A program made the position numbers and the translations under genes. A model generated the notes under the pieces. The model was not told the DNA's origin, searched no databases, and saw only the letters and a program-made list of their open reading frames with translations. A stretch of DNA of 54,902 bases from Actinomyces oris (GTDB lineage Bacteria; Actinomycetota; Actinomycetes; Actinomycetales; Actinomycetaceae), in assembly GCF_001929375.1 (NCBI RefSeq), contig NZ_MSGO01000019.1:1-54902 (forward strand), read 5' to 3'. The stretch's first letter is position 1. Each line of letters opens with the position of its first letter. Below, in pieces: positions 51,023 through 53,960 of this stretch.

Positions 51023-51256
51023 TGGTGCTACTGGTCCGCGTGGGCCTGAGCGTCGCTCAGCGACGGAAGCCGAAGGTGGTACTGGCGTCGGTGGTCGATG
51101 CGCACATGGACTCCACATGCCTGCTGGCGATTTCAGTGCTGGCCTGCATCAGCCAACTCACTTCCCACATCCGGCGCGGTCCACGGATCTTGAAGACAGC
51201 CCTATCTGAGGTACTGAGTCCCCTTCGCAGCATCCTTGGTAAGTCTCGTCGCACGG
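51023..51256. other. Non-coding junction between core genome and AT-rich island
   Basis: No convincing gene is present. GC content drops visibly from about 51250 onward. An open frame across 51007-51306 has no family features and no ribosome binding site. Confidence 0.5.
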
Positions 51257-51285
51257 TTGACATGCTCAGAAAATATATCTACCAT
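51257..51285 (+). promoter_or_regulatory. Near-consensus SigA promoter of the MauE/Cys-rich cassette
   Basis: TTGACA (51257-51262) and TACCAT (51280-51285) are exactly 17 nt apart, in AT-rich DNA. The predicted start is near 51292, about 29 nt before the first ATG. It is the best-matching promoter in the window. Confidence 0.75.
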
Positions 51286-51320
51286 ATAAAAAGTAGTCGG
51301 GTCTAGCGAAGGGTGCGGCG

Positions 51321-51815
51321 ATGGTGTTGTCGGTTTTTGTCAATGTGTTTCGATTTGCAGTAGGTTGCTATTTCGTAAAATCCGGATCAGATAAGTTGGG
51401 GAAACCGTCATTATTTTGGAAATCAATCATGAATTATGATTTAGTTAATGCTCGAACGGCCCGCGTTCTTTCGTCCGTCATTCCTCCGCTTGAGTTTTTT
51501 GGAGGTTTACTCCTTGCTGCAAATATTATACCTTTTGCTTTTTCTGTTCTCCTTGTTTTCCTTCTGTCTATTTTTAGCTTCGCCATGGTTGCGGCCATGA
51601 TGCGCGGAAATGTGCCGGACTGTGGTTGTGGTGTCGTGAAAAATGCCGTCTCACCACTTCTTGTGGTGCGTAACATAGTTCTTGCTCTCATGTTGCTCCC
51701 CACGATCTTCAAAGGGCTCGAGGCGCCGAAAGGAGAGGAGGTTTCTATTGCTGTCATCACTATGATTGTCGTCGTCATTGTCGCGATCATGCGCGGCAGG
51801 GCGTTGGTCAGATAG
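51321..51815 (+). CDS. MauE/DoxX-like membrane protein
   Basis: 164 residues with about four membrane helices (roughly 5-20, 52-92, 112-130 and 142-158). It begins with a FRFAVGCYFVKSGSDKL segment like MauE and DoxX proteins, and has C101-G-C103-G in a loop (PDCGCG), matching the CGCxG motif of the MauE family. In methylamine dehydrogenase systems MauE is needed, with MauD, to form the many disulfides of the small subunit. Here it lies 43 nt upstream of a 12-Cys secreted protein, suggesting the same kind of service. AAGGG lies 8 nt before the ATG. Codon usage is much more AT-rich than that of neighbouring genes, pointing to transfer. Confidence 0.78.
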   Translation: MVLSVFVNVFRFAVGCYFVKSGSDKLGKPSLFWKSIMNYDLVNARTARVLSSVIPPLEFFGGLLLAANIIPFAFSVLLVFLLSIFSFAMVAAMMRGNVPDCGCGVVKNAVSPLLVVRNIVLALMLLPTIFKGLEAPKGEEVSIAVITMIVVVIVAIMRGRALVR

Positions 51816-51858
51816 TTTGGTGAGTTGGTCGTCAGTATGCGATAGGAGGTAGATTGCA

Positions 51859-52542
51859 ATGGCGATGCGCAGGTCTGTTGTCAAAGGAATTCTGGTGACT
51901 ATAGGTGGTTTTGTGGGTTCCGCCTTCATGGGTCTTGGTGAGCGTGCTCATGCTTTGACTGCGGGGGGTGATCTCGGAAATCAATGGTTCGAGGATGAAC
52001 TCGCTGACACTCGGGAGGCGAATAGTGTGGAGGCATCCCAAATTCTTCCCGACATTAGAAAAAGGGTTGTGGATATTGGGTACCCGCAGGATGTTGTCGA
52101 AACCGCTGCCTTCGGAGTGACTTCCTCGGTCTCGCCTCGTGGGACTACTGTACTTAAAGCCGGCCTTCGACTCAATGAGGAGCTGTTCTTTACCGAGATC
52201 AAGGAGTTACTCGAGGCTGGTGATGATCGAGCCGCTTTTATGGCGTATAGAACCGATGGGCAGACTTATCTCCAGCGACTGTCTGGGCGTCAAACGACCC
52301 CAGAGGGTTTTGCGGAGTTGCAGCAGGAAAATCCTGATGGGTTTCTGCCGGTCGCGTCTTCTGAGTGTTGCGGCGCCTTTGGTACGCCCCCGGCCACCTG
52401 CTGTCGTTATGAGCTCAAGGCGATGTTTGAGTGTTGTACCCCTTGCATCTTCGGTGGCATACCACTTGGTGTCATGTGTGTCATGATCTGGTGCAATTAT
52501 TGCGCTGTCTCCCATTGTAAGGAGTATTATCACGTTTGCTGA
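51859..52542 (+). CDS. Secreted precursor with a 12-cysteine C-terminal domain (bacteriocin-like candidate)
   Basis: 227 residues. An N-terminal signal peptide (RR at 4-5, hydrophobic 9-27, probable cut after AHA at 30-32) is followed by a Cys-free region of about 135 residues. The last 58 residues hold all 12 cysteines: 170, 171, 181, 182, 192, 193, 196, 207, 212, 215, 220 and 227. The first six form CC-x9-CC-x9-CC. The layout, exported precursor plus Cys-dense C-terminus, recalls halocin C8-type bacteriocin precursors; MauA is another 12-Cys secreted protein dependent on MauE, but its Trp cofactor residues and Cys pattern are not seen. AGGAGG lies 9 nt before the ATG. AT-rich, like the upstream gene. 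The assignment as an antimicrobial is inference. Confidence 0.8.
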   Translation: MAMRRSVVKGILVTIGGFVGSAFMGLGERAHALTAGGDLGNQWFEDELADTREANSVEASQILPDIRKRVVDIGYPQDVVETAAFGVTSSVSPRGTTVLKAGLRLNEELFFTEIKELLEAGDDRAAFMAYRTDGQTYLQRLSGRQTTPEGFAELQQENPDGFLPVASSECCGAFGTPPATCCRYELKAMFECCTPCIFGGIPLGVMCVMIWCNYCAVSHCKEYYHVC

Positions 52543-52679
52543 TTTCGGTATGGATGGTTATGGGGTTTTGGGGTTGGTATAACGTTCTTGAGGTAAACAG
52601 AGGTTTATTCACAGAACGAGGAAAGTGACTGCTTGGGAAAACGCGGGTGGCTGGCGTGTCTGTAAGTAGTCCTTGTGGT

Positions 52680-53960
52680 CTCCACCCATGTCGACTCAGG
52701 GGGGTGCCCCTATGTGGTGTGTCAAGCGGCTGCGGGTAGTTTCGTGGCTGGTTGGGGGTCGTAGAGGGCTCCATCTCGGATCATGGCGTGCAGGGTCAGG
52801 ATGCGGCGGTGGGCCAGGGCGAGAACGGCCTGGCCCAAGGCGGTTTGCCTTGGTCTCGTTTGCGCTGGTAGTAGGCCCGGGAGACGGGGGCGGAGCGCAG
52901 GGAGGCGAAGGCGGACAGGAACATGGCGCGCTTGAGCCTCTTGTTGCCGCCGTGGGAGACGCACCTCACCACGGATCGATGAGCCGGAGCGGCGTGTGAC
53001 GGGAGCGAGCCCGGCGTAGGAGGCCAGCTGGGCGCCGGTGCCTGGAGGTCTTGCCCAGGGTCTCGGCCAGGAAGACGGCTGCGGTCCTGACCCCGATCCC
53101 GGGCATGGAGGTCAGGACCTGGTAAAGAGGGTGGGCCTGCACCAGGGTCACCGGCCTGGGCGGCGACATCGGCCCGCTGAGCGTGCAGGGAGATGAGCTG
53201 CCTGGCCAGGTGGGGCAGCACCGTTGCGGCGGCGTCGGTGCCGGCGACCACCACGGTCTGGTGCTTCAGGGCCGAGACGATCTGGCCCGCCCAGGCGGCA
53301 TGCCGCCTGCACCCGTGCTTCTTGAGCCTGGCGTCAATCCTTGTCCTGCCTGCGCGCTTCAGATCGGCTGGAGTGGGCCAGGCGGCGATGACCTCCAGGA
53401 CGGCGTCGTGCGCCCGGCCAGGGCCCCACCACGGCCTCGAGGGCGGGGTGGATCTGGGTGTACAGGCCCCGGATCCGGTTGGCGGTCTGGTTGACCTGGC
53501 GGGCCAGGTCCAGGTCGAATCCCGTGAGCATCGACAAGGCGGCCGCGTCCTCGTCCGAGGCGCTGACGGCTCTTAGGGTGTGAGGCATGCTCCTGGCAGC
53601 GCCAGCGATGACGGCCGCGTCCTTGGCGTCGGTCTTGGCGCTGCCCGGCGTCAGGTCAGCGATGCGGCGCATCGACAGCCCGGGCAGGTAGCCCACGGTG
53701 ATGCCCATGTCCTGAGCCACCGCCACCGCCAGGGCCCCGATGGTAGCGGGCTGATCGACCACCACCAGCAGGCTCCCGTGGTCGGCCAGCTTGCCGTAAA
53801 GGGAACGCAGACGTGCTTCGTCGTTGGGAAGGGGCTTGTCAAAGACCTTCTGCCCGTCCCGGCTCAGGGCCGTGGCCCAGTGATCCGTCTTGCCGACGCC
53901 CGGTACCGATGAAGACCTCGATGTCCTCGATATCCATCTCTCCTGCCACCTCTCGCTGCA
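52680..53960 (-). mobile_element. IS110-type insertion sequence remnant
   Basis: This is the extent covered by the decayed transposase plus a few flanking bases. IS110 elements usually lack terminal inverted repeats, and I could not define exact ends. An AGGGG/CCCCT mini-hairpin near 52697-52712 lies at the downstream side. Boundaries are approximate. Confidence 0.55.
52722..53937 (-). pseudogene. Decayed IS110-family transposase
   Basis: Pieces of one IS110/IS116-type DEDD transposase can be followed on the minus strand across at least three alternating frames. From ATG 53937: MDIEDIEVFIG; then VGKTDHWATALSRDG to QIHPALEAVVG; then RAHDAVLEVIAAWPTP to QRADVAAQ; then PLYQVLTSMPGIGVRTAA (Transposase_20 region); then QLASYAGLAPVTRRSGSS; then VSHGGNKRLKRAMFLSAFASLR; then ALAHRRILTLHAMIRDG, ending at 52722. 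At least six frameshifts make an active enzyme impossible. Confidence 0.85.

Follow-up and report, generated by a model that had tools for sequence, protein, structure and literature searches.

Why should a gene for a MauE-family membrane protein lie directly beside one encoding a putatively exported protein with a dozen cysteines crowded into its tail, and do the two act together? The question is raised by a locus in Actinomyces oris, on a 54,902-nt stretch of contig NZ_MSGO01000019.1 (the window, here meaning the whole stretch analysed) from a 3.11 Mb genome assembled in 95 contigs (G000). MauA, the client of MauE in methylamine dehydrogenase maturation, holds six disulfides, and a first-pass annotation made from the sequence alone proposed that the A. 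oris genes form a stand-alone pair in which the membrane protein supports disulfide formation in a secreted, possibly antimicrobial, mini-protein.

The locus and its two products

The features of the locus, in window coordinates, are as follows.

51201–52800, no strand assigned: low-G+C stretch containing the pair, 41–58% per 200 bases against 65–74% on both flanks
51257–51285, forward strand: promoter-like site TTGACA-17-TACCAT, a consensus match only (10/12)
51321–51815, forward strand: MauE gene, encoding a 164-aa MauE-family membrane protein that matches PF07291
51621–51629, forward strand: CGC motif, MauE residues 101–103, in the loop between predicted helices 72–94 and 112–131
51844–51849, forward strand: putative AGGAGG ribosome-binding site, identified by sequence, 9 nt upstream of the precursor ATG
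51859–52542, forward strand: precursor gene, encoding a 227-aa exported-type precursor with relatives in eight genomes, including this one
51868–51873, forward strand: twin arginine, precursor residues 4–5, recognised in the leader alignment and followed by a hydrophobic stretch and A-x-A (residues 30–32)
51991–52338, forward strand: middle (pro) region, residues 45–160, with a predicted helix (56–72) and five predicted strands (84–140)
52366–52539, forward strand: cysteine-rich C-terminus, residues 170–227, with 12 cysteines, 10 of them invariant in seven relatives

The near-consensus promoter originally described ahead of MauE is present as a 10/12 match (six of six positions at −35, four of six at −10) and no other site on the two strands of the window scores 10/12 or better. 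Also present, as described, are the perfect AGGAGG sequence and the 43-nt spacing before the precursor, the latter measured between the ORF coordinates. Both frames are real genes, since they are conserved in three other species, where the precursor shows 45–51% and MauE 41–45% identity to the respective counterparts.

The base composition of the pair is foreign to its surroundings. The G+C content of the MauE and precursor genes is 0.46 and 0.53, respectively, against 0.70 for the window, and their GC3 values are 0.48 and 0.52, two genes upstream having values of 0.93 and 0.96. The gene upstream of the cassette (GC3 0.93), which we take to encode an M16 peptidase, resembles core genes in this respect. 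Judged by composition, the low-G+C stretch is probably acquired DNA, transfer being the natural reading. Downstream of the pair lies an IS110 transposase gene (PF01548; 52722–54002, reverse strand), whose frame seems to be interrupted; IS110-type genes occur near the pair in three genomes, in the window (by Pfam) and at L122 7035–8012 and L123 2952–4222 (both by eye). Inspection by eye of the listed ORFs that are flanked by the upstream peptidase gene and the IS110 gene revealed no transporter, peptidase or regulator gene that could be part of the cassette, nor does the pair have an evident gene for immunity or transport.

The assignment of the 164-residue protein to the MauE family is borne out by a strong match to PF07291 (E 3.4e-21, 76.3 bits against a curated cut-off of 27). 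Its predicted model (mean pLDDT 73.1) has five long helices and suggests the helical membrane bundle with a CxC loop that characterises the family, the CGC loop itself being modelled at a pLDDT below 50. CGC is invariant among the six paired MauE proteins aligned. A charge count over six MauE proteins found that the side with loop 1, loop 3 and the C-terminus, which is also the CGC-bearing side, is the more positively charged in five; the exception (L119) is accounted for by a long basic N-terminus. By the positive-inside rule, this pattern suggests that the CGC loop would lie in the cytoplasm, and a cytoplasmic CGC is hard to reconcile with a simple disulfide enzyme that works outside the cytoplasm. 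Elsewhere in the A. oris genome, a second MauE match that falls below the cut-off (C51:11337–11681, L063) is apparently fused to a thioredoxin-like domain.

An exact count confirms that all 12 precursor cysteines (residues 170, 171, 181, 182, 192, 193, 196, 207, 212, 215, 220 and 227) lie within the final 58 residues, an arrangement that random placement would produce with a chance of 3e-8. The precursor also has the highest number of cysteines per 60 residues (12) among the 422 ORFs examined in the window that are 60 amino acids or longer, the runner-up (11) being an ORF of 80 amino acids. At the other end of the protein, the exported-type leader noted earlier turns out to be a conserved twin-arginine, Tat-like leader, to judge from the alignment. 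The aligned leaders start MRRSVVKG (window), TRRTILRG (two precursors), TRRSALRT, KRRQALLTG, KRRSAVGF and NRRSFLRL; RR is found in the leader of seven of the eight aligned precursors. In the eighth, from A. gerencseriae (L005, near 2100–2130), RR codons are present upstream in a different frame from the body of the protein, so that the leader is broken as sequenced, either because the gene has decayed or through a sequencing error. Several leaders close with FPE or VPE and then A-x-A, the window leader being without the PE. Seven long precursors (L002 left out) were scanned with the TAT profile TIGR01409, which L017 alone passes (20.6 bits, cut-off 16.7); a TAT signal model is the sole NCBIfam match among the six long precursors other than that of the window (P0002), which itself reaches no TAT model and no NCBIfam model at E 10. 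TatC and VKOR are both encoded in the A. oris genome, and Tat export of the precursor appears likely from its leader.

AlphaFold2, run with six sequences, predicts a helix and strand meander for residues 51–120 (block-mean pLDDT 73–87); for residues 161–227, the cysteine-rich part, the block means are below 60 and the prediction is of low confidence. The precursor is unnamed by Pfam, NCBIfam and PADLOC. The first-pass annotation had named a confident match of the C-terminus to a known family as evidence against its reading; in the precursors scanned, any Pfam or NCBIfam matches to the C-terminus were weak and fell below the model cut-offs (for example PF06193, E 0.48, at L006 residues 171–215).

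Pairing of MauE and precursor across the family

Relatives of the precursor were found in eight of the 213 family genomes searched: seven within the genus, for which 49 genomes were sampled, and one in another genus (G206, L017). Two weaker candidates, an eighth genus match at a looser limit (G007, E 0.008, with three internal stops) and a second place in the A. oris genome (E 0.008), were dropped as noise. A public collection yielded 37 pattern matches, five of which were relatives, all from Actinomyces (A. bowdenii, A. israelii, A. massiliensis, A. gerencseriae and A. sp. AC-20-1); these coincide with five of the seven genus genomes. Ten cysteines are invariant across the seven genus precursors, though whole-protein identity to P0002 drops to 20%, and nine are invariant once L017 is added to the alignment. 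As a general claim, the six disulfides originally envisaged go too far: with just 10 cysteines invariant, six could apply at most to the sub-group to which the A. oris protein belongs.

MauE is the immediate, same-strand neighbour of the precursor in all eight genomes, intact in seven and in pieces in one (G024), where the broken MauE lies beside an intact precursor, yet two other intact MauE genes are found in the same genome. The tabulation proposed at the outset, of homologues with and without a MauE neighbour, thus gives none without one among the eight, and the stand-alone pair is kept in every precursor-bearing genome. The conserved two-gene unit is real. MauE comes first in six cases (the window, A. 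bowdenii, A. israelii, A. massiliensis, G206 and G024) and the precursor in two (A. gerencseriae and A. sp. AC-20-1), the two genes being 21–104 nt apart in the window and in the five relatives named above. The flanks of the pair vary between clades: they presumably comprise succinyl-CoA ligase and phosphofructokinase-like genes in A. bowdenii, a release-factor-like gene in A. israelii and A. massiliensis, and thiamine-type genes, an IS110 gene and a ParE/GyrB-like gene in A. gerencseriae. Since the flanking genes differ from clade to clade, MauE and precursor appear to move or persist together.

Passive co-inheritance of two functionally unconnected genes on a mobile segment would also bring them together, and the low G+C content and nearby IS110-type transposase genes are what such a segment might be expected to display. 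Passive linkage sits poorly, however, with the occurrence of both gene orders, with the shared strand in eight of eight genomes and with the different chromosomal neighbourhoods, as well as with the independent association of MauE with unrelated cysteine-rich peptides in other families (below), and we consider it highly improbable.

The converse relationship is much looser. PF07291 matches were found in 24 of the 49 genus genomes, above the cut-off in 20, and 30 loci were examined of the 32 MauE matches listed, the G024 MauE fragment lying outside these 30. An intact precursor ORF was present at six of the 30 (L035–L040), that of A. gerencseriae having its RR in another frame. Directly beside two further MauE genes are shortened RR-leader ORFs (L041 1896–2294 and L059 1930–2259) that stop before the cysteine-rich part; L059 matches the precursor profile at E 0.003, L041 at merely 0.2. 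No precursor was found with six MauE genes whose products lack C-x-C (L042, L044–L047 and L049), the three that were read having CGYFG instead. The MauE gene of G004 (L052) has the succinyl-CoA-ligase flank seen in A. bowdenii but neither precursor nor CGC, having GGYGSG in its place, and at L060 and L061 MauE retains CGC, with no precursor found within ~1.5 kb. Most of the remaining genus MauE proteins resemble, by eye, MauE–thioredoxin fusions; two apparent fusions resembling L063 (L054 and L057) adjoin an ABC transporter gene. In this set, then, the precursor is always accompanied by MauE, MauE is often alone and several of the orphans have lost their cysteines. Such decay of orphan MauE fits a partnership with the precursor.

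What the pair might do

The explanation that we prefer, and think just about probable on sequence grounds, is that of a two-gene maturation cassette, in which MauE would aid disulfide bonding of an exported precursor that frees a cysteine-rich mini-protein. The twin-arginine leader suggests that the precursor is exported, probably via Tat. The leader, and then the folded pro-region of ~120 residues, would be removed to leave a C-terminal mini-protein of ~58–65 residues, processing that the domain layout makes fairly probable. The 10 conserved cysteines of the mini-protein (12 in this sub-group) would form disulfides, which MauE, acting through its CGC loop, would make or correct alongside VKOR-type machinery. 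It is because MauE is so strictly paired with the precursor that we propose this assistance, and we rate it about as highly as the processing step. In the weakest step of the scheme, the hydrophobic, cysteine-rich product might act against other bacteria, which we regard as plausible, though short of probable.

The hydrophobicity of the cysteine-rich tail could, however, also allow it to remain in the membrane. The cargo of Tat-like leaders is often a folded or cofactor protein, and MauA, the best-known client of MauE, is an example. The precursor might accordingly be an exported redox or metal-binding protein that serves its own envelope, in metal or thiol buffering or as a cofactor protein like the methylamine dehydrogenase beta subunit, and release no peptide at all. 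A comparison of the C-terminus with one MauA sequence detected no similarity (hhalign probability 0.3–0.4%), and no convincing match to solved chains was found (best E 1.4). The patchy spread (seven of 49 genus genomes), foreign base composition and decayed copies are a better fit to an accessory trait, and on this evidence an envelope role seems unlikely.

MauE is widespread beyond the genus, being found in 160 of the 296 class genomes sampled (E 1e-10), and in one genome (G608) there are up to nine matches. We looked for short cysteine-rich peptides at 60 hand-picked MauE places in the class: nine additional copies, six best-scoring copies from the same kind of genomes, five copies from family f37 and 40 best-scoring copies. 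Leader-type cysteine-rich peptides were found near eight of the nine additional copies and three of the five f37 copies, and near none of the six or the 40 best-scoring copies. Ten of the peptide loci (L095, L096, L100–L103, L105, L107–L109 and L114 in all) were picked out by a rule that was drawn up after the first matches were known, and L107 by eye. There were 17 matches to the rule, four of them low-complexity frames that were discarded (L136, L160, L164 and one in L108); for six of the 17 the distance to MauE exceeds 1.2 kb, so that distance is no clean control. A cruder rule applied to 30 top-scoring loci (L065–L094) gave nothing convincing.

The peptides, from other actinobacterial families, are 54–86 amino acids in length with at least six cysteines and are encoded within ~3.5 kb of MauE, three of them in tandem in L108. 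Their leaders mostly end in hydrophobic-Pro-(x)n-A-x-A, for example xADRLLxxLVPxxxAxA and ..DRxLxRLVPxxxAxA, and none of the 10 scanned reached a Pfam cut-off. At three of the four loci checked, the next gene encodes a redoxin/AhpC-TSA protein, which we take to be MauD-like. The short peptides share with the Actinomyces precursor a nearby MauE and a cysteine-rich part that follows a leader; they differ in their length and in mostly being without the twin arginine, and by eye there is no resemblance between the two.

These loci bear on a further reading of the pair. In bacteriocin operons, the peptide is often accompanied by a small immunity protein of the membrane, and MauE might be such a protein, or a target-site protein, that guards the membrane of the producer from its own peptide and plays no part in maturation. 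Adjacency in eight of eight genomes would then look identical, and no other immunity gene is evident. Immunity would have no need of the invariant CGC of the paired MauE proteins, however, and the redoxin/AhpC-TSA neighbours in other actinobacteria fit thiol chemistry; an immunity function strikes us as decidedly unlikely. A much bolder extension of the maturation cassette, and one that we think improbable as it stands, is that a wide class of exported, disulfide-packed mini-proteins of the Tat type have MauE proteins as their dedicated folding factors, methylamine dehydrogenase beta being the enzyme branch of this class and the Actinomyces peptides a bacteriocin branch. The CGC motif would perhaps be cytoplasmic, oxidation taking place before the folded cargo passes through Tat, an idea that stems from the charge pattern described above.

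With two genes and a small client whose cysteine pattern is fixed, such a system would allow a disulfide role for MauE to be tested directly. Were the product a bacteriocin, its disulfide-rich class would be an undescribed one, from a genus with oral species among its members, and MauE plus leader would provide a handle for finding many more. In the decRiPPter report, the disulfide role of MauE is still presented as speculation from methylamine dehydrogenase, with citation of a 1997 study (PMC7794033).

Comparison with known systems

The Actinomyces pair shares with methylamine dehydrogenase maturation the MauE family itself and a client leader with a twin arginine (seen in 3c75_L). It differs in that the methylamine dehydrogenase light chain was not found in the A. 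oris genome and in that MauA, the client, has no detectable similarity to the precursor. The first-pass statement that no mau genes are present holds as regards the light chain, with no PF02975 match in this genome at E 0.01; across 148 genomes, there were four sub-threshold PF02975 matches and none above the cut-off.

The layout of the precursor is like that of the halocin C8 precursor. Halocin C8 is reported to derive from a single precursor that is exported by Tat and loses its N-terminal part to give a 76-aa C-terminal mature peptide, HalI being reported as the immunity part (PMC11509114). A cysteine-rich C-terminus is common to both, as is a twin-arginine leader in the case of a Haloferax relative. 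Beyond the leader, no sequence similarity was detected: hhalign against two halocin C8-like precursors gave 2.3%, over 22 leader columns only. No annotated MauE or DoxX neighbour was seen in the two halocin C8-like loci viewed. The resemblance is an analogy of layout and implies no membership.

The closest parallel lies in Streptomyces. In the decRiPPter study, three candidate RiPP families combine mauE with precursors of at least eight cysteines, one of them also having mauD; its authors detected no further mau genes in those genomes and suggest a part in precursor modification (Kloosterman et al. 2020; PMC7794033). The short MauE-linked peptides of other actinobacterial families resemble these candidates. 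In the light of that report, the first-pass remark that no described system has this composition was too strong (PMC7794033). Among the papers listed by our search of one open-access library, we saw no further report of MauE with a cysteine-rich precursor, nor any characterised member. In common with the Streptomyces families, the Actinomyces cassette has mauE beside a precursor with at least eight cysteines (12 in this case). The decRiPPter clusters had been retained by a strict filter that called for modifying enzymes, a transporter, a peptidase and a regulator (PMC7794033), whereas the Actinomyces cassette is without the last three, consisting of two genes only, and differs further in its 227-aa precursor, Tat-like leader and predicted structured pro-region. 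The Actinomyces pair is set apart by its minimal two-gene form and its long Tat-like precursor; the kind itself had already been flagged computationally.
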